This document shows, piece after piece, positions 12,702 through 21,813 of a DNA stretch of 64,000 nucleotides. Position numbers and translations under genes: made by a program. How positions within the stretch are numbered: position 1 is the first letter of the stretch; each line of letters opens with the position of its first letter. This stretch comes from Pseudoduganella plicata (GTDB taxonomy: Bacteria; Pseudomonadota; Gammaproteobacteria; Burkholderiales; Burkholderiaceae_D), in the NCBI RefSeq assembly GCF_004421005.1, contig NZ_CP038026.1:1054001-1118000 (forward strand), in the 5' to 3' direction. A model generated the notes under the pieces. That model saw nothing but the letters and a program-made list of their open reading frames with translations, was not told the origin of the DNA and did not search any database.

Positions 12702-14900
12702 TTAGCGGTTGGCGAAAGCCGCGCGCGCCTTGTGCAGCTTGCGATAGCTGTCCAGCAAACGCTGATGTCGGTCCAGCCCTTCCAGACCCATGCCGACCGG
12801 CGTCAGCCCATGGAAGCGCACGCTGCCGTCGATCGCGCCCAGCGCCGCATCCATGCGCGCGTTACCGAACATACGGCGGAAGTTGGCGACGTAGTCGTCG
12901 ATCTCCAGGTCGTCGTCCAGCTCCACTTCCAGCACCACGTTCAGCGCCTGGTAGAACAGGCGACGTTCGACGGTATTGTCGTTGTACTGCAGGAAGGCGC
13001 CGACCAGGTCGTGCGCGTCCTCGAAGCGTTTCAGCGCCAGGTTGATCAGCAGCCGCAGTTCCAGCACCGTCAGCTGGCCCCACTCCGTGTTCTCGTCGAA
13101 CTCGATGCCGATCAAGGTGGCGATGTCGGAATACTCGTCCAGCTCGTTGTTTTCAAGGCGGTCGAGCAGCGCTTCCAGCTGCGCGTCGTCCAGGCGGTGC
13201 AGGTTCAGGATGTCTTCCCGGAACAGCAGCGACTTGTTGGTGTTGTCCCAGACCAGATCCTCGACCGGGTAGACCTCGGAATAACCCGGCACCAGGATGC
13301 GGCAGGCCACCGCGCCCAGCTCGTTGTATTCGGCGATATACACTTCCTTGCCCGCGTCGGCCAGCAGGCCCAGCAACGCGGCGGCTTCCTCGGCGTTGGC
13401 GTTCTCGCCTTCGCTGGTGAAATCCCACTCGACAAAGTCGTAATCGGACTTCGCGCTGAAGAAGCGCCACGACACGACGCCGCTGGAATCGATGAAGTGC
13501 TCGACGAAGTTGTACGGCTCCGTCACGGCCGCGCTGGCAAACGTGGGCGGCGGCAGGTCGTTCAGGCCTTCGAAGCTGCGGCCCTGCAACAGTTCCGTCA
13601 GGCTGCGCTCGAGCGCCACCTCGAAGCTCGGGTGCGCGCCGAACGACGCGAACACGCCGCCCGTGCGCGGGTTCATCAACGTCACGCACATCACCGGATA
13701 CTGCCCGCCCAGCGACGCATCCTTGACGAGCACGGGGAAGCCCTGCTCTTCCAGCGCCTGGATACCAGCCAGGATGCCGGGATACTTCGCCAGCACTTCC
13801 TGCGGCACGTCCGGCAACGCCAGCTCGCCTTCGATGATCTCGCGCTTGACCGCCCGCTCGAAAATCTCGGACAGGCACTGCACCTGCGCTTCCGCCAGCG
13901 TATTCCCGGCGCTCATGCCATTGCTGGCGTACAGATTCTCGACGAGGTTCGACGGGAAATACACCGTCGCACCATCGGACTGGCGTACGAACGGCAGCGA
14001 GCAGATGCCCCGCGCCACGTTGCCGGAGTTGGTATCGATCAGGTGCGACGCACGCAGCTCGTCTTCCGGGTCATAAATCGACAGAGTGTATTCATCGAGG
14101 ATCTCCTCCGGCAGCGCATCCTTGCGCCGCGGCTTGAACCAGCGCTCGTTCGGGTAATGCACGAACGGCGCGTTGGCGATGTCCTCGCCCCAATAGGCGC
14201 CGGCATAGAAGTGGTTAGCGCTGAGGCGCTCGATGTACTCTCCCAGCGCCGAGGCCAGCGCGCTCTCTTTCGTCGCGCCCTTGCCGTTGGTGAAGCACAT
14301 CGGCGAATGCGCGTCGCGGATATGCAGCGACCACACGTTCGGCACGATATTGCGCCACGACGCGATCTCGATCTTGATGCCGAGCCCCGCCAGCAGCGCC
14401 GACATATTGGCGATGGTCTGCTCCAGCGGCAGGTCCTTGCCCGGAATGTAGGTCGCGGTATCGCCGCCCGGCTTCACCGTCAGCAGCGCCTGCGCATCGG
14501 CGTCCAGGTTCTCGACTTCCTCGATCACGAACTCCGGCCCCTGCTGCACGACCTTCTTGACGGTGCAGCGGTCGATCGAGCGCAGGATGCCCTGGCGGTC
14601 CTTGTCGGAGATGTCCGCCGGCAGCTCGACCTGGATCTTGAACGTCTGCTGGTAGCGGTTTTCCGGATCGACGATATTGTTCTGCGACAGCCGGATGTTC
14701 TCCGTCGGGATATTGCGCGTGTCGCAGTACAGCTTGACGAAGTAAGCGGCGCACAAGGCCGACGACGCCAGGAAGTAGTCGAATGGCCCGGGCGCCGAGC
14801 CGTCGCCCTTGTAGCGGATCGGCTGGTCGGCGATCACCGTGAAGTCGTCGAACTTCGCTTCGAGGCGAAGCTTGTCGAGAAAATTGACCTTGATTTCCAT
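12702..14900 (-). CDS. OsmC-domain/YcaO-domain fusion protein
   Basis: A 732-residue cytoplasmic protein. Residues 1 to about 135 form an OsmC-like domain (MEIKVNFLDKLRLEAKFDDF, then a Cys in LCAAYFVKLYCDT). About 180-590 is a YcaO ATP-dependent cyclodehydratase-type domain, with SALASALGEYIERLSANHF and CLSEIFERAVKREIIEGE carrying the ATP/Mg acidic residues. The last 140 residues are acidic and helical, as in E. coli YcaO (586 residues, linked to RimO methylthiolation of ribosomal protein S12). No RiPP precursor or RimO gene is adjacent. A shrunken copy of its 5' end lies at 24939-25275. Confidence 0.9.
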   Translation of the reverse strand: MEIKVNFLDKLRLEAKFDDFTVIADQPIRYKGDGSAPGPFDYFLASSALCAAYFVKLYCDTRNIPTENIRLSQNNIVDPENRYQQTFKIQVELPADISDKDRQGILRSIDRCTVKKVVQQGPEFVIEEVENLDADAQALLTVKPGGDTATYIPGKDLPLEQTIANMSALLAGLGIKIEIASWRNIVPNVWSLHIRDAHSPMCFTNGKGATKESALASALGEYIERLSANHFYAGAYWGEDIANAPFVHYPNERWFKPRRKDALPEEILDEYTLSIYDPEDELRASHLIDTNSGNVARGICSLPFVRQSDGATVYFPSNLVENLYASNGMSAGNTLAEAQVQCLSEIFERAVKREIIEGELALPDVPQEVLAKYPGILAGIQALEEQGFPVLVKDASLGGQYPVMCVTLMNPRTGGVFASFGAHPSFEVALERSLTELLQGRSFEGLNDLPPPTFASAAVTEPYNFVEHFIDSSGVVSWRFFSAKSDYDFVEWDFTSEGENANAEEAAALLGLLADAGKEVYIAEYNELGAVACRILVPGYSEVYPVEDLVWDNTNKSLLFREDILNLHRLDDAQLEALLDRLENNELDEYSDIATLIGIEFDENTEWGQLTVLELRLLINLALKRFEDAHDLVGAFLQYNDNTVERRLFYQALNVVLEVELDDDLEIDDYVANFRRMFGNARMDAALGAIDGSVRFHGLTPVGMGLEGLDRHQRLLDSYRKLHKARAAFANR

Positions 14901-14944
14901 GATGGATTCCAGAAAACGCAAAAAGAGGCTGCTGGCCGGCGCAG

Positions 14945-14975
14945 TAAAAACAGAAAGCCCCGCCGTGGCAGGGCT
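14945..14975 (-). terminator. Terminator after the LysR gene
   Basis: Read on the minus strand, AGCCCTGCC / GGCGGGGCT pair with one mismatch (14956-14964 with 14967-14975), followed shortly by a T-rich run. It lies between the LysR stop (15029) and the ycaO start (14900), so the two are probably separate transcripts. Confidence 0.55.
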
Positions 14976-15028
14976 CGACACATGGGCGGCAGCGAATCCC
15001 GGATTATACGCACTTGGCGACCGCCATT

Positions 15029-15916
15029 TCACGTGGCGCTCATGCAGGCCGCCAGTTCGTCCGTCGTGCCATTGGGAAACACCGTCTTCAGCAGGTCCAG
15101 AAACGCCGCCACGCGCGGGCTCAGCAGCCGGCGCGACGGGTACAGCGCCGAGATGGCGATTTCCGCCGCGTCCAGCTCACCCCACTGCAGCAGGCGCCCG
15201 GCAGCCACCTCGCGGCTGACGAGCGACACGGGCAGGCACGCGGCGCCCACGCCGGCCACCACGGCGTCGCGCACCATCACCAGCGACGACAAGCGCAGCC
15301 GCGGTTCGATGGCGATGCGCGCGCCGTCCTGCAGCGTCCAGGCCGCGGCACCGCCGCCATCAGCGCGGAGGACGGCGGCAGCCGGTTCGTCGCCCAGCGG
15401 CCGCGCGATGCCCGGGTGGGCCACGACCGCCAACCGGTCGCGCAGGATGATGCGTCCGACCAGCGTCGCATCCGGGTCGGGATTGACCCGGATGGCCAGG
15501 TCGTAGCCTTCCTCGACCATGTCCACGGCGCGGTCCTCGGTGGTGATTTCCAGCCGGACGTGGGGGTAGGCCAGCGCGAAGCGGGCGGCCAGTTTTCCCA
15601 GCGCCATCTGCGCGAACAGCAGCGGCGCGCTGATGCGCAGCCGGCCGCTGACCGCGCTGGCGCCGGACTTCAGGGCCGTCACCGTCTCGTCGATCTCCAG
15701 CAGCAGCGGTGCCATGCGCGCATGGAAGACCTCGCCCTCCTGCGTCAGCTTCAGCGTGCGCGCGCCCCGCTCCAGCAGCCGTACGCCCAGCGCCGCTTCC
15801 AGTTCCAGCACGCGGCGCGACAAGGTCGCTTTCGGCCGGCCGCTGGCACGCGTGGCGCGGCCGAAGCCGCCATGGCGGGCCACCAGGTTGAAGTCGGCCA
15901 GCGCGAGCAAGTCCAA
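15029..15916 (-). CDS. LysR-family transcriptional regulator
   Basis: A 295-residue regulator. The N-terminal winged helix begins LDLLALADFNLVARHGGFGR and contains KATLSRRVLELEAALGVRLLERG. A periplasmic-binding-protein-like effector domain (about 90-290) follows. The protein most likely starts at TTG 15916, which gives (M)DLLALADFN as in relatives and has AGG eight bases upstream; no ATG is well placed. It is divergent from the frameshifted NmrA-like gene, the usual arrangement of a LysR regulator and its target. Confidence 0.85.
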   Translation of the reverse strand: MDLLALADFNLVARHGGFGRATRASGRPKATLSRRVLELEAALGVRLLERGARTLKLTQEGEVFHARMAPLLLEIDETVTALKSGASAVSGRLRISAPLLFAQMALGKLAARFALAYPHVRLEITTEDRAVDMVEEGYDLAIRVNPDPDATLVGRIILRDRLAVVAHPGIARPLGDEPAAAVLRADGGGAAAWTLQDGARIAIEPRLRLSSLVMVRDAVVAGVGAACLPVSLVSREVAAGRLLQWGELDAAEIAISALYPSRRLLSPRVAAFLDLLKTVFPNGTTDELAACMSAT

Positions 15917-17446: not shown

Positions 17447-18553
17447 TCACGTCCGCCTGACCTCCGCGCCCCCGTCCACGGGCGTGCAGATCGAGCCGGC
17501 GCCGATCAGCAGGCGGACCAGGTCGGCCTGCCGGTCCGTGCCGGTCTTCTGGAAGACCGACCTGATCTGGCTCTTCGCCGTGTTGATCGACAGCCCCGCC
17601 TCCGTGGCGATCTGTGCCAGCGTCGCGCTGCGGCTGCCGACCATCACGGCAAGACGCGCCTCGGCCGGCGTCAGGTCGAACATGCGCTGCAGGCATTCCG
17701 CGGACACCGGTACACAGCGCCCGGGATTGGTCAGCACCAGTAATGCGTCGGCCCGCGCGAACAGGTCGTGGGCCGCGCCGGCGAGCGGCAGCACATGCAG
17801 CACGCGGATCGGGCCCGGTCTGGCCCGGATGGGAATCGAGCAGCCGGAAAAGTCCTTGGCGCGCAGCCGCGCCAGCGCACCGGCGAACTGCTGCTGGGCC
17901 CGCCGATGCTGCAGGCACAACGCGCGGCCGATTTCGCGGAACGTCGTCCCCAGCTCATCCTGGAAGCGCAGATTGGCCGTGACCATCGCTCCCCTCGCAT
18001 CGATCACGCATGCCGCCGCGCCGATCGCCTGCAACGCTTGCACGTGTCCATGCATCGTCTGCAAGCGAAACTGGTCCGCCAGCTGGATGGCCCGTGCCAG
18101 GTGAGGACGCAGCGCATCGAGCGCCGGCACCGCGGCCCGCGCCGCATCGTAGTCGCAAAACCCTTCCACCGACAGCATGATGTCCTCGCCGGCGAGACCG
18201 GGTACGTACGTGCCGGCGGCGGCGGCAAAGCCACGCGGGCGCATGAACTGCTCGCACACGGGATCGTGCAGCAATTCCTGCTCCGACATTACGTCCAGTT
18301 CGGTCACGAAGCCGGGACGCCCCAGCGCACGCACCCTGGCCGGGCGCTCGTTCCGGCCCATCCATTCGCCGCTCAGGAACTCTTCCATGAAATCGGCCGC
18401 CGCGCCACCGCCGCGCCAGCAGGTGCCGTCGGCCGCCAGCGTGAACAGCAGCGCGCCCCTGGAGTGGAAACGCTCCCCTACCTCCTCGAGCAAGGACGGC
18501 CATTTCTCGGCAATGATGGCCGCTTCGTAGATTTGCTGGATCAGGCTTTCCAT
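17447..18553 (-). CDS. LuxR-family transcriptional regulator
   Basis: A 368-residue regulator. The C-terminal 65 residues are a LuxR/FixJ helix-turn-helix: LTPAEARLAVMVGSRSATLAQIA, then SINTAKSQIRSVFQKTG. The N-terminal 200 residues show no receiver phosphorylation site, and the middle (about 190-290) looks PAS-like. The start at 18553 (MESLIQQIYEAAIIAEKWPS) was chosen because this opening is typical of this regulator subgroup; upstream in-frame codons are rich in Arg/Ala and unlikely. Its targets are unknown. It is convergent with the AtaL-like gene. Confidence 0.85.
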   Translation of the reverse strand: MESLIQQIYEAAIIAEKWPSLLEEVGERFHSRGALLFTLAADGTCWRGGGAAADFMEEFLSGEWMGRNERPARVRALGRPGFVTELDVMSEQELLHDPVCEQFMRPRGFAAAAGTYVPGLAGEDIMLSVEGFCDYDAARAAVPALDALRPHLARAIQLADQFRLQTMHGHVQALQAIGAAACVIDARGAMVTANLRFQDELGTTFREIGRALCLQHRRAQQQFAGALARLRAKDFSGCSIPIRARPGPIRVLHVLPLAGAAHDLFARADALLVLTNPGRCVPVSAECLQRMFDLTPAEARLAVMVGSRSATLAQIATEAGLSINTAKSQIRSVFQKTGTDRQADLVRLLIGAGSICTPVDGGAEVRRT

Positions 18554-18799
18554 GGTGTCCCCCGTCGCGCCACAGATTGGACAGTATTCCACGATTTCAC
18601 CCGTTCGGGTGTTGTTTGCCGCGCCTGCGAAAGGTCTCATGACACGTAGGCAGTGACCAGTCCTTGCTGCCGGCGCCGACAGCGTTTCGGTCGCGCGCAG
18701 CGCCGCGCGAATGTGGCCCGGGATGAACGGACGCGTTCGCGGTGGTGACCAACCTCTACATGCCGTCACAAACGGCCCTGACTACCAGGGAGATGAACC

Positions 18800-19078
18800 A
18801 TGCCAAGACCAAGCAAACTGGACACCGTCGTAAGCATCGTCGACCAAGCATTGACGGATGCGGGCTACCCACGTCCGAAACGCGGGGAGGACACGCCGAT
18901 GCGCAAGGTACTGTCCGATGAACTCGACAAGCTGGCGATCATCCTGATGGCCATCAGCAAACGCCTGCGCGACAACAAGCCGTCGTACACGTTCCCCGTC
19001 GATTACGCATTTTGCGAAAAAGCGCTGGAATACGACGAGATCGATCTCAGCGCCGCCGTGGCAGCGCGCACGAGCTAG
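18800..19078 (+). CDS. Hypothetical 92-residue protein, first gene of radical SAM cassette
   Basis: Small soluble protein of 92 residues with ATG 18800 after GGGAGATG. The sequence is mixed charged (MPRPSKLDTVVSIVDQALTD..., later DELDKLAIILMAISKRLRDN) and contains one cysteine (Cys72). No signal peptide and no recognised family. It is nine bases before the secreted-protein gene and begins a same-strand run ending with a radical SAM enzyme, so it is probably part of the same function. It could be a second substrate, a carrier protein or a regulator; nothing in the sequence decides this. Confidence 0.7.
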   Translation: MPRPSKLDTVVSIVDQALTDAGYPRPKRGEDTPMRKVLSDELDKLAIILMAISKRLRDNKPSYTFPVDYAFCEKALEYDEIDLSAAVAARTS

Positions 19079-19087
19079 GGGGCCGCC

Positions 19088-20377
19088 ATGACGCTTCGAG
19101 ACCGCACCGTGTCGCGCCATGCGATGCTGGGGTGCGCCACCCTGGCCCTGGCCGTCCTGCCGCCGGCCCTGGCCGGCGACGGCTTTTACGACCGCAAGAA
19201 GCTGTGTACAGCTGCGGGCTACGTGGACAAGGAGGCGCTGGCGAAGCGGCTGGTGGAGCATGACCGCATCGGCTCGACCTTCCGCAATGCGGTGCCGCCG
19301 GCCGCCGCGGCCACGAATGCCGGCCTGCTCGCCGCGCTGATCCGCATGGGAGACTCGCCATGCGACACCATCGGCACATGCAGCGAGGAAGAGCGGCTCG
19401 ACTCGGATGGGTTGATGGCGCGGCTGGTGACCTTGTTCGCGTATCCGCCAGCGGAATTTACCCTCGCGAAGGGCGTGACGAAGGAGAATTTCTTTGCAAC
19501 GCCCAACGATGTGAATCCGCTGCTGTGCGTGGCAACACCAGCACAGAACGCGGCCGGCGGCAAGGCGAGCTGGCTGGCGGCCCTGCGCGTGCGCGGCCAT
19601 CCGGACGATCTCGTCATCTCGCAGCAGGAAGCGGAATTCAAGGCTGCCAAGCCGGCCGTCTTCAGCGTCGATCGCGATGAGCTTGCCGATACCCGCACCA
19701 TCAGCAGCAACGCGTATCTGGGCATCCTGGGGCAGGAGCGGCGTGAGGACATGACGAAGACCGCATGGCTCGGCTACCTCGGCATGGCGCGCAGCAGCAC
19801 GCGCGTGGACGGCACGGAAGATCCGGACCGGAAACTCAACCAGCTGCATGCCGGCATCATCTTCGACCGTCACCATGCGGGGCGCTATCGCCTGGCGCTT
19901 CGGCCCACCTATTTTCACGATCGGGTGGATGGCACGCGCGTCGCAGCGGTGGATGCGGTCTATACGCCGTACTGGCCGCTGACGGACAACAAGCTGAGAG
20001 CCAGCACGAACCTGCTCATCAACTTTCCCGCGTTCGCCATCAGGCCGGTCGTGAAGGCAAAGCTGCATGCGGGCCATTTCACGAACCGCTCGCGCGATCC
20101 CGACATCGCCGCCTACCAGGAAAACTATCTGCGCGCTGGTGGCGTGCTGGGAGCCGACCTTTTCGCCGCCAACCTCCCGGTCGAATATCACTTCAGCTAT
20201 ACGGGCCTGGCGAGACTGCGCGGCCCGTCCAGCATCCACCACGTCACGCATGCGCTGGGTCTCAGCCTGGACCCGAACGACTACACCAGCCTCGTACTGG
20301 ACTATTCGCGCGGCACCAACGAGGAAACGCTGCTGCGCGAGAAACGCTGGAAACTGACGTTTGCGTTCCGCTATTAA
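19088..20377 (+). CDS. Secreted, probably outer-membrane protein of radical SAM cassette
   Basis: A 429-residue protein with a signal peptide (about 1-29, ending PPALAG). The N-terminal half (30-190) has four cysteines in two groups (C38; C92 and C98; C147) and could form a disulphide-bonded periplasmic domain. The C-terminal half is rich in alternating polar/aromatic strands and ends KLTFAFRY, a terminal aromatic as used by the BAM complex to recognise outer-membrane barrels. No known family was recognised. Its place between two small genes and a radical SAM gene suggests export, display or reception of the modified product; this is inference. Confidence 0.7.
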   Translation: MTLRDRTVSRHAMLGCATLALAVLPPALAGDGFYDRKKLCTAAGYVDKEALAKRLVEHDRIGSTFRNAVPPAAAATNAGLLAALIRMGDSPCDTIGTCSEEERLDSDGLMARLVTLFAYPPAEFTLAKGVTKENFFATPNDVNPLLCVATPAQNAAGGKASWLAALRVRGHPDDLVISQQEAEFKAAKPAVFSVDRDELADTRTISSNAYLGILGQERREDMTKTAWLGYLGMARSSTRVDGTEDPDRKLNQLHAGIIFDRHHAGRYRLALRPTYFHDRVDGTRVAAVDAVYTPYWPLTDNKLRASTNLLINFPAFAIRPVVKAKLHAGHFTNRSRDPDIAAYQENYLRAGGVLGADLFAANLPVEYHFSYTGLARLRGPSSIHHVTHALGLSLDPNDYTSLVLDYSRGTNEETLLREKRWKLTFAFRY

Positions 20378-20410
20378 CCGCACCGACCACACTACCGACA
20401 GGAGAACGCC

Positions 20411-20725
20411 ATGGCATCATCCGACGAAAAAGAACTGCTCCGGGCGGCGCTCAGCACCCGCTTTGCGCTGCCCGACGATACGCTGACGAAGGTCATCGAC
20501 CAGCTCGGCAGCCTGCACCTCGACAACGTCACGCTGGCCGATCTCACGCCTGCGGCCAGCACCACGTCGAAGGCGCTGGTCGCACAGTACGATGTGCCGC
20601 CAGAGCGGCTGGCGGAGATCATCGCACTGGCGGGCAAGCTGCATGACCTCAAGGACATCACGATCTTCCCGCAGGGGATCGTCGCGCCACGCAACTGGCG
20701 CGTCAACATCGGCATGCGGACATGA
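20411..20725 (+). CDS. Hypothetical 104-residue protein coupled to radical SAM enzyme; candidate substrate
   Basis: A 104-residue protein with ribosome site AGGAGAAC and ATG 20411. The first 80 residues are helical and leader-like (MASSDEKELLRAALSTRF... LADLTPAASTTSKALV). The tail is different in character: IFPQGIVAPRNWRVNIGMRT, with Arg, Asn, Trp and Met but no Cys, Ser or Thr-rich core. Its stop overlaps the radical SAM start by four bases (ATGA), which usually marks stoichiometric or substrate-enzyme partners. A RiPP-like precursor with an unusual core or a recognition subunit are both possible. No family was recognised. Confidence 0.75.
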   Translation: MASSDEKELLRAALSTRFALPDDTLTKVIDQLGSLHLDNVTLADLTPAASTTSKALVAQYDVPPERLAEIIALAGKLHDLKDITIFPQGIVAPRNWRVNIGMRT

Positions 20726-21813
20726 TGGACGGTTCCGCCAGGGGTCCGGGCCCCGTCGGCGAGCCGACGCTGCACTTGCACCCTTTGCGCCGCTGCAACC
20801 TGGCGTGTGCCCACTGCTATGCGTCGAGTTCGCCGCACGCGACGGACCGGCTGGAACCGCGCGCGGCGCTGCAGGCGATCCGCCAGGCTGCGCGATGGGG
20901 TTACCGCCGACTGGCCATCTCGGGCGGAGAGCCGCTGCTGTACCCATGGTTGGGCGAACTGGTCGACATGTCGGCCGGGCTCGGCATGCGCAGCGCGATC
21001 GTGACGAATGGCCTGCTGGCGGGCCGCGGCGACAAACTGGCCGTCCTGAAGCGCTGCGACACCGTCGCGGTCAGTATCGACGGACTGGCGGCCGCGCACG
21101 ACGCATTGCGCGGCCGGCCGCGAGCGCTGGCGGGCGTACTGGCGGCACTCGACTCGATGGTCGATGCCGGCATCCACGTCAGCGTCGTGTGCGGCGTCAG
21201 CCGGCTCAATGCCAGCGAAATCGAGGAGATCGCTGGCATTGCAAGCAGCCACGGCGCCAGCGCGCTGCAATTGCATGTGGTGTCTCCGTCCGGACGCGCA
21301 CGCGACAGCATGCTGTCGCACCTGCTCGGCGAGCGGGGCATGCAGGAGCTTTACCTGGTCGCGCGGGTGCTCGCTGGCCTGTACAGGGAGAGCATGCACG
21401 TCAGTGTCGATCTCGTGCACCGTGACGTCGTCGCGGCATTGCCCGGCCTCCTCTACGGCATGCCGGTCTCACATGCGGCGCAACGCGCGCCTGCCGAAGT
21501 GCTGGGTGTCCTGGTCGTGGAGCCCGACGGCAACGTCAATCCCGTCTGTTTTGGCTTTGGCGCGGCGTATGGACTGGGACACTTGGGCAGCGCGGGACTG
21601 GCGCCGCTGTGGACACCATGGGTCGCCGGCCGGTATGAACGCCTGACCGCGCTGGGCGGGCAATTGTGGGAGCGGGCCCGGCGGCGCGAAGGCGCGTCGC
21701 TGCTCAATCCCAGCGACGTGCTCGGCCAGGCATCGCAGGGCCCGCCCGTATCGCAGGCAGCCGTCCGGCTGGCGAGGCCCTCGTGCGTGACGGCCGCGGA
21801 CGGCGCGTACTAG
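20722..21813 (+). CDS. Radical SAM protein with short SPASM/twitch-like C-terminus
   Basis: A 363-residue enzyme. The SAM [4Fe-4S] motif is C25-x3-C29-x2-C32 (CNLACAHC), followed by AISGGEPLL (GGE at 68-70) and a second-half SAM-site segment VSIDGLAAAHDALRG. The C-terminal part has the SPASM-type VEPDGNVNPVCFGFG, but only one cysteine there and one more near the end (RPSCVTA), too few for two auxiliary clusters. This layout resembles peptide-modifying radical SAM enzymes such as PqqE but is not PqqE. The substrate is inferred to be the coupled 104-residue protein or the 92-residue protein. Confidence 0.85.
   Translation: MMDGSARGPGPVGEPTLHLHPLRRCNLACAHCYASSSPHATDRLEPRAALQAIRQAARWGYRRLAISGGEPLLYPWLGELVDMSAGLGMRSAIVTNGLLAGRGDKLAVLKRCDTVAVSIDGLAAAHDALRGRPRALAGVLAALDSMVDAGIHVSVVCGVSRLNASEIEEIAGIASSHGASALQLHVVSPSGRARDSMLSHLLGERGMQELYLVARVLAGLYRESMHVSVDLVHRDVVAALPGLLYGMPVSHAAQRAPAEVLGVLVVEPDGNVNPVCFGFGAAYGLGHLGSAGLAPLWTPWVAGRYERLTALGGQLWERARRREGASLLNPSDVLGQASQGPPVSQAAVRLARPSCVTAADGAY

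Follow-up and report, generated by a model that had tools for sequence, protein, structure and literature searches.

What does a radical S-adenosylmethionine (SAM) enzyme without auxiliary-cluster cysteines do beside a small protein that has no cysteine at all? The question is raised by positions 18,800 to 21,813 of a 64,000-nucleotide stretch of the Pseudoduganella plicata genome (GCF_004421005.1, contig NZ_CP038026.1, positions 1,054,001 to 1,118,000), referred to here as the window, where a reading of the letters alone had proposed an undescribed peptide-modification cassette of four genes. Our analysis points to a 104-residue protein, encoded directly upstream of the enzyme, as the likely substrate, and predicts that the enzyme modifies the glycine-centered turn motif of this protein. 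The two are best read as a pair representing an apparently unnamed radical SAM class that resembles the ribosomally synthesized and posttranslationally modified peptides (RiPPs). The features on which this reading rests are as follows.

20411-20725, plus strand: 104-residue small protein, the proposed substrate (precursor), with profile-supported relatives upstream of the enzyme and no known family
20722-21813, plus strand: radical SAM enzyme of 363 residues whose C-terminal region lacks auxiliary-cluster cysteines (PF04055, AlphaFold2 model, structure matches)
20663-20722, plus strand: C-terminal tail of the small protein, IFPQGIVAPRNWRVNIGMRT, a diverged motif copy (alignments A2 and A3) and hairpin 2 in the AlphaFold2 model (strands 80-88 and 95-103)
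20675-20677, plus strand: Gly89, the constant motif residue (A3 and A2) and first residue of the predicted turn
20558-20569, plus strand: residues 50-53, turn of predicted hairpin 1, the site of the first motif copy in many relatives

The enzyme and the small protein recur as a pair

A public-genome search that started from an alignment of 35 enzyme relatives (A1) returned at least 565 relatives, the best 80 of which were kept; 36 of these (L003-L037 and L039), together with the window, L088, L089, and L090, make up the 40 loci that we treat as the family. Some of them are not independent of one another, as L005 and L008 are both records of Nitrospira defluvii, L088 and L090 come from one genome, and five loci are from Saccharothrix. 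Each locus was searched by leave-one-out, with a profile built from the small proteins of the other loci and with any of these that were at least 45% identical excluded; the search covered stop-to-stop frames, 3237 fragments from around the 40 family loci and 6899 from 51 whole control radical SAM loci (602 kb). The public-genome search supplied 44 of the controls, 41 of which extend 500 bases or more upstream of the match.

In 26 of the 40 family loci, the best match of the locus lies directly upstream of the enzyme, with E values from 3e-24 to 3.8e-6 (2.8e-8 for the window protein), against none of the 51 control loci, where the best match reached an E value of 0.093 (11.9 bits). This is the linked precursor gene by which RiPP systems are recognized. 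The sequence-only reading had staked its case on enzyme homologs mostly keeping the small genes, and for the 104-residue protein this was borne out, since a further 7 loci have a small gene that is either weak in the same test (L017, E value of 0.013) or recognized by eye (6 loci). Judging by the record titles, the 26 loci fall into Pseudomonadota, Nitrospirota, Acidobacteriota, Bacteroidota, Planctomycetota, and Actinomycetota, with some genera placed in the phylum to which we presume them to belong; Cyanobacteria are a seventh phylum, with a small gene recognized by eye only.

When five genomes were searched with the small-protein profile, all four matches adjoined a family enzyme and there were no orphan copies, though the same search missed G074 and G480, both of which have a copy recognizable by eye. 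Enzyme and small-protein distances are correlated across 25 loci (r of 0.69) and also among distant pairs only (r of 0.37), neither value being reached in any of 2000 permutations; the double-glycine loci described below, L020, L039, and L037, whose enzyme open reading frame (ORF) was not picked, were left out of this comparison. An all-against-all ORF comparison of the 40 loci found recurring response regulators (6 loci) and ABC ATPases (5 loci). We considered a larger conserved cluster and rejected it, as no third specific gene is common across phyla among the matches listed.

In an even draw of Pseudomonadota, 10 of 398 genomes match the enzyme profile at an E value of 1e-45 or lower, and at least 3 of these (the window's own genome, G480, and G482) belong to the family, a lower bound because scoring was mostly limited to 5 candidates per genome. 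In the other seven (L095-L101), the proteins have a Cys-rich, SPASM-like C-terminal region and no small gene was detected, and we take these enzymes to resemble NirJ. In the related genomes G480 and G482, loci L093 and L094 encode a family enzyme and a small upstream protein with VCKYGTCWDFEF and IMIDGITDPERLRVRV, a divergent two-copy version of the motif. The Saccharothrix loci (L022, L024, L025, L027, and L030) encode a family-like enzyme with no recognizable small gene nearby, and at L028 (Nitrospira; -702 to 656 relative to the match) the enzyme frame continues from an unrelated upstream frame that looks PAS-like by eye, so that this copy is possibly truncated or rearranged.

The small protein carries a motif built around a constant glycine

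The small proteins have in common an N-terminal segment, often RGSEKLL-like or GSEKLL-like, and the motif [FI]-P/I-x-G-[ITK]-[PIV]-x-P-[DE]. A profile of these proteins found 89 database proteins, that of the window included, and for the motif count a set of 118 proteins, from which the seemingly broken or incomplete P0091, P0110, and P0133 had been dropped, was reduced to 34 at less than 60% identity. By a permissive score drawn up after the motif had been noticed, all 34 have at least one copy and 14 have at least two. The motif Gly is invariant in the 29 rows of alignment A3 and is conserved in at least 90% of the 32 rows of A2. Outside the double-glycine groups, the proteins are roughly 90 to 156 residues long.

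In the window protein, the motif copy is FPQGIVAPRNWRVN, which retains the Gly, the second Pro, and the flanking residues, and the tail that carries it is identical at 19 of 20 residues to that of P0002 (64% identity over the whole protein) and at 13 of 20 to that of G028 (51%). At residues 50 to 53, a first motif copy is not recognizable. The AlphaFold2 model, which is of medium confidence (mean predicted local distance difference test [pLDDT] of 73.7), has helices at residues 4-17 and 22-34 and a beta-beta-alpha-beta-beta domain, in which the turn of hairpin 2 begins with Gly89; where relatives have a first motif copy, it aligns to the turn of hairpin 1. The division into a leader and a distinct tail, which had been drawn from the letters, does not stand in that form, since the model folds the tail into the second of two hairpins in a small domain, and since many relatives carry the motif in duplicate. 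The tail was described as having no Cys, and the 104-residue protein as a whole has none.

No convincing Pfam or NCBIfam family was found for the small proteins, in keeping with the expectation that they lie outside known unrelated families. Single members weakly match other families, including bacteriocin and RiPP leader models (best E value of 0.0073), and an identification of the 104-residue protein as YkoP was rejected, as the match scored 17.5 bits against a cut-off of 27 and was found in 1 of 32 aligned members. A fold search gave a weak, general match to PilO-like domains (best E value of 1.2e-3), and no solved sequence relative was convincing (best E value of 0.098).

The enzyme conserves only its core cluster

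The enzyme belongs to the radical SAM superfamily by its match to PF04055 (E value of 1.2e-21) and its CxxxCxxC cluster motif. Across 72 aligned relatives (L028 and L037 omitted), the core cysteines are conserved in 70 (C25), 71 (C29), and 69 (C32), and these are the only columns with Cys in at least 90% of the relatives, every other Cys column reaching at most 29 of 72. The cysteines that hold the auxiliary clusters of SPASM and twitch domains are thus absent from the C-terminal region, confirming the reduced SPASM-like end seen by the sequence-only reading. Further conserved residues include H20, S36, D120, H126, R130, Q183, H185, D230, and P274. At window residue 312, where the window enzyme itself has no Cys, 28 of the 72 relatives do, and this Cys could mark a second functional subgroup.

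The AlphaFold2 model of the enzyme (pLDDT of 92.6) is nearest in structure to SkfB, SuiB, BlsE, DesII, PqqE, CteB-type enzymes, anSME, and EpeE, with a Foldseek E value of 1.1e-17 to SkfB, which is also the nearest solved relative by sequence profile. None of the best 25 of the 71 matching NCBIfam models scores above its cut-off. Neither PqqD nor the RiPP recognition element (RRE) was matched in the Pfam scan of the four genes, and no separate N-terminal domain is seen in the enzyme model, which agrees with the absence of a PqqD-like element noted earlier.

A version of the pair lies in an export operon

In the Nitrosomonas group, the small protein is 62 to 72 residues long and has a double-glycine leader. 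The protein of L017, for example, has 67 residues, with LTPEEISQIAGG preceding a stretch that ends in FPSWLIRGIPVDIYH, and its gene is followed in order by those for the enzyme, an HlyD-family protein (PF13437), and a C39-peptidase ABC transporter (PF03412, PF00664, and PF00005), the genes overlapping or being closely spaced. The small gene was found in 5 of 100 genomes of the Nitrosomonas family, in all 5 with the same four-gene order. For L117 and L119, HlyD and peptidase/ABC models match, the best being TIGR01843 and TIGR03796 of NCBIfam, both below cut-off; for L116 and L118, HlyD and C39/ABC proteins were assigned by sequence similarity. The Nitrosomonas small protein and its operon show the classic arrangement of modified peptides that are processed and exported, and this double-glycine form in an operon with C39/ABC and HlyD genes is the strongest reason for reading the small protein as a substrate. 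That no protease or ABC exporter accompanies the pair, as had been stated, is correct beside the window pair but not for the Nitrosomonas version. Genes for leader removal and export are present in the five Nitrosomonas-family genomes with the small gene, and none was seen beside the window pair.

The surroundings of the pair in the window

The pair is part of a set of four genes, all on the plus strand, with gaps of 9, 33, and -4 bp in the ORF list, the stop of the 104-residue gene and the start of the radical SAM gene overlapping in an ATGA; these coordinates agree with those first described. The remaining genes, and the regulator-like gene that diverges from them, are as follows.

18800-19078, plus strand: 92-residue protein, lineage-specific member of the four-gene set, found in G000 and G028 (2 of 61 genomes), both with the whole set
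19088-20377, plus strand: 429-residue protein with a signal-peptide-like start and an aromatic C terminus, barrel-like by eye, found in G000 and G028 (2 of 61 genomes)
17447-18769, minus strand: divergent regulator-like gene with weak helix-turn-helix matches, none above cut-off, which adjoins the set in G028 too

G000 is the window's own genome (5.9 Mb, single contig), and G028, the nearest relative with these genes, is the one other genome in which all four were found. As they recur there together and in the same order, the set is more than a chance arrangement. In 100 related genomes, the window's own included, the 104-residue protein was found in 2 and the enzyme, at an E value of 1e-30 or lower, in 4; distant enzyme relatives among the same genomes (G058, G074, and a second G028 copy) are 31 to 38% identical. 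Of the four-gene cassette as proposed, it is the 104-residue protein and the enzyme that recur, whereas the 92-residue and barrel-like proteins were found only in G000 and G028 among the 61 genomes searched. The latter two genes are lineage extras, and the conserved unit is the 104-residue protein with its enzyme.

The 92-, 429-, and 104-residue proteins match no Pfam family and no NCBIfam model above cut-off. Both the signal peptide and the barrel-like C terminus of the 429-residue protein are by-eye calls, and no relative of this protein was found among solved structures (PDB) or in Pfam. A PADLOC scan of the four genes returned nothing specific, and a promoter and terminator scan and the base composition gave nothing decisive.

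In G028, the enzyme is followed by genes for ferritin-like (PF12902), LodA-like, and flavin adenine dinucleotide-dependent proteins (L088, 7414-11239). A LodA-type quinoprotein system was considered and rejected: LodA was not matched in G000, the ORF-cluster matches listed include no further locus with such genes, and we therefore treat them as local to G028. Elsewhere in the window (12702-15032, minus strand) lies a gene for an OsmC-YcaO fusion protein that matches NF040716, the ribosomal protein S12 methylthiotransferase accessory factor YcaO, and TIGR03549, both above cut-off; it gave no sign of belonging to the cassette.

Substrate, partner, or carrier

Several observations weigh against the small protein being a modified substrate, or against the strength of the linkage on which this reading depends. 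The boundary of the family was set by the analyst, with L035 and L037 admitted after their small gene had been noticed and L038 and L040, which have similar scores, kept among the controls. The small protein was recognized by eye and is nonsignificant in the leave-one-out test at L006, L012, L014, L018, L020, and L039, and no small gene was found at 7 of the 40 loci (the five from Saccharothrix, L028, and L029). Shared inheritance can also give correlated enzyme and small-protein distances. The motif in the window (GIVAPR) has neither the usual first Pro nor the Asp, and a folded small domain, as predicted by the medium-confidence model, would be an unusual RiPP core. Neither a protease nor an exporter gene was seen adjoining the four genes in the window ORFs and the Pfam scan, and a pattern scan found no C39 gene in the fetched DNA of the double-glycine loci L006, L012, L014, and L018, that of L014 stopping at the enzyme.

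The absence of a PqqD-like element from the Pfam scan, the predicted folding of the small protein as a domain, and the adjoining of the enzyme by the copies found would all suit a partner or recognition subunit that plays the part of PqqD with another fold, the substrate being encoded elsewhere. We consider this unlikely, as the Nitrosomonas group has a peptide of 62 to 72 residues with a double-glycine leader, all five of the genomes examined there combine the small gene with a C39 exporter in one operon, and it is the motif that is kept across groups. Less likely again is an enzyme with a small-molecule substrate, like BlsE, NirJ, and viperin, with the small protein carrying or presenting that molecule. 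The enzyme core does resemble BlsE and viperins as well as SkfB, but the match to the NCBIfam viperin model NF038283 is far below its cut-off (72.1 against 180 bits), the PADLOC matches are partial (pVip, 74.5 bits, from a model with no stated cut-off), and only generic response-regulator and ABC genes recur across phyla among the ORF-comparison matches listed. That SkfB, the maturase of the sporulation killing factor, is the nearest solved relative might suggest a conventional RiPP system of the sactipeptide, ranthipeptide, or epimerase type whose precursor has degenerated. This seems highly improbable to us, given that the 104-residue protein has none of the core Cys of sactipeptides and ranthipeptides, that the enzyme has neither auxiliary-cluster cysteines nor a universally conserved extra Cys, and that no NCBIfam model passes its cut-off among those 25.

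Reading the small protein as the substrate, we propose the following model. The N-terminal segment of the small protein would dock on the enzyme, no PqqD-like element having been found to take that role, and the enzyme would generate a 5'-deoxyadenosyl radical at its single [4Fe-4S] cluster. This radical would then take a hydrogen from the turn, and the modification is predicted to fall most likely on the constant Gly or on an adjacent residue, yielding a cross-link, a dehydrogenation, or another product. Thioether chemistry is unlikely for this enzyme because the 104-residue protein has no Cys, and a recurring motif with a constant Gly and no requirement for Cys, Ser, or Thr suggests chemistry of a different kind. 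In the window, the modified turn would stay within the small folded domain, and the adjacent secreted barrel-like protein may serve in the delivery or reception of the modified small protein. More tentatively, and with slightly less than even confidence, we suggest a new class of peptide and protein editing, in which an enzyme with only the core cluster alters the Gly turn of a small, duplicated hairpin domain and the same chemistry is applied to folded proteins that remain whole, as in the window, and to C39-exported double-glycine peptides, as in Nitrosomonas.

Relation to known systems

Maturases of the SkfB and SuiB type (SPASM/twitch) share with the window enzyme the radical SAM core fold and a small precursor gene beside the enzyme. 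The pair differs from them in the C-terminal region of its enzyme, which has no auxiliary-cluster cysteines, and in its precursor, which lacks Cys, has a Gly-centered turn motif that is often duplicated in relatives, and belongs to the size range given above. The Nitrosomonas-group operon is like those of C39-exported double-glycine peptides in its GG-type leader, HlyD protein, and Peptidase_C39/ABC protein, for which TIGR03796 (NHLP bacteriocin export) is the best, below-cut-off NCBIfam model; the window member, unlike such peptides, has no double glycine and no adjoining C39 or HlyD gene. BlsE, a cytosylglucuronate decarboxylase, and the viperins have a similar radical SAM core, with partial profile matches mainly to that core; their substrates are nucleosides or nucleotides, and they are not known to use a small protein as substrate.

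TvgA/TvgB likewise combine a radical SAM enzyme with an adjoining precursor in which a motif is repeated; here a TVGG motif and a SPASM-type enzyme give a poly-cyclopropylglycine peptide, according to a survey of IPR023867 families (PMC9062424). The section 4 text of that survey, which selects SPASM-type enzymes, names no GIPxPD-like motif among its families (PMC9062424), and a second survey selects short ORFs of 20 to 100 residues (PMC11002830). Filters of this kind could miss the present class, since its enzyme has no auxiliary-cluster cysteines and its precursors are mostly longer than 100 residues. We found neither the motif nor the pairing of enzyme and small protein in the open-access literature; supplements and subscription journals could describe the class.

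The pair is small, comprising two genes and 1.4 kb. If its small protein is modified, the pair would represent a widespread and apparently unnamed class of radical SAM peptides.

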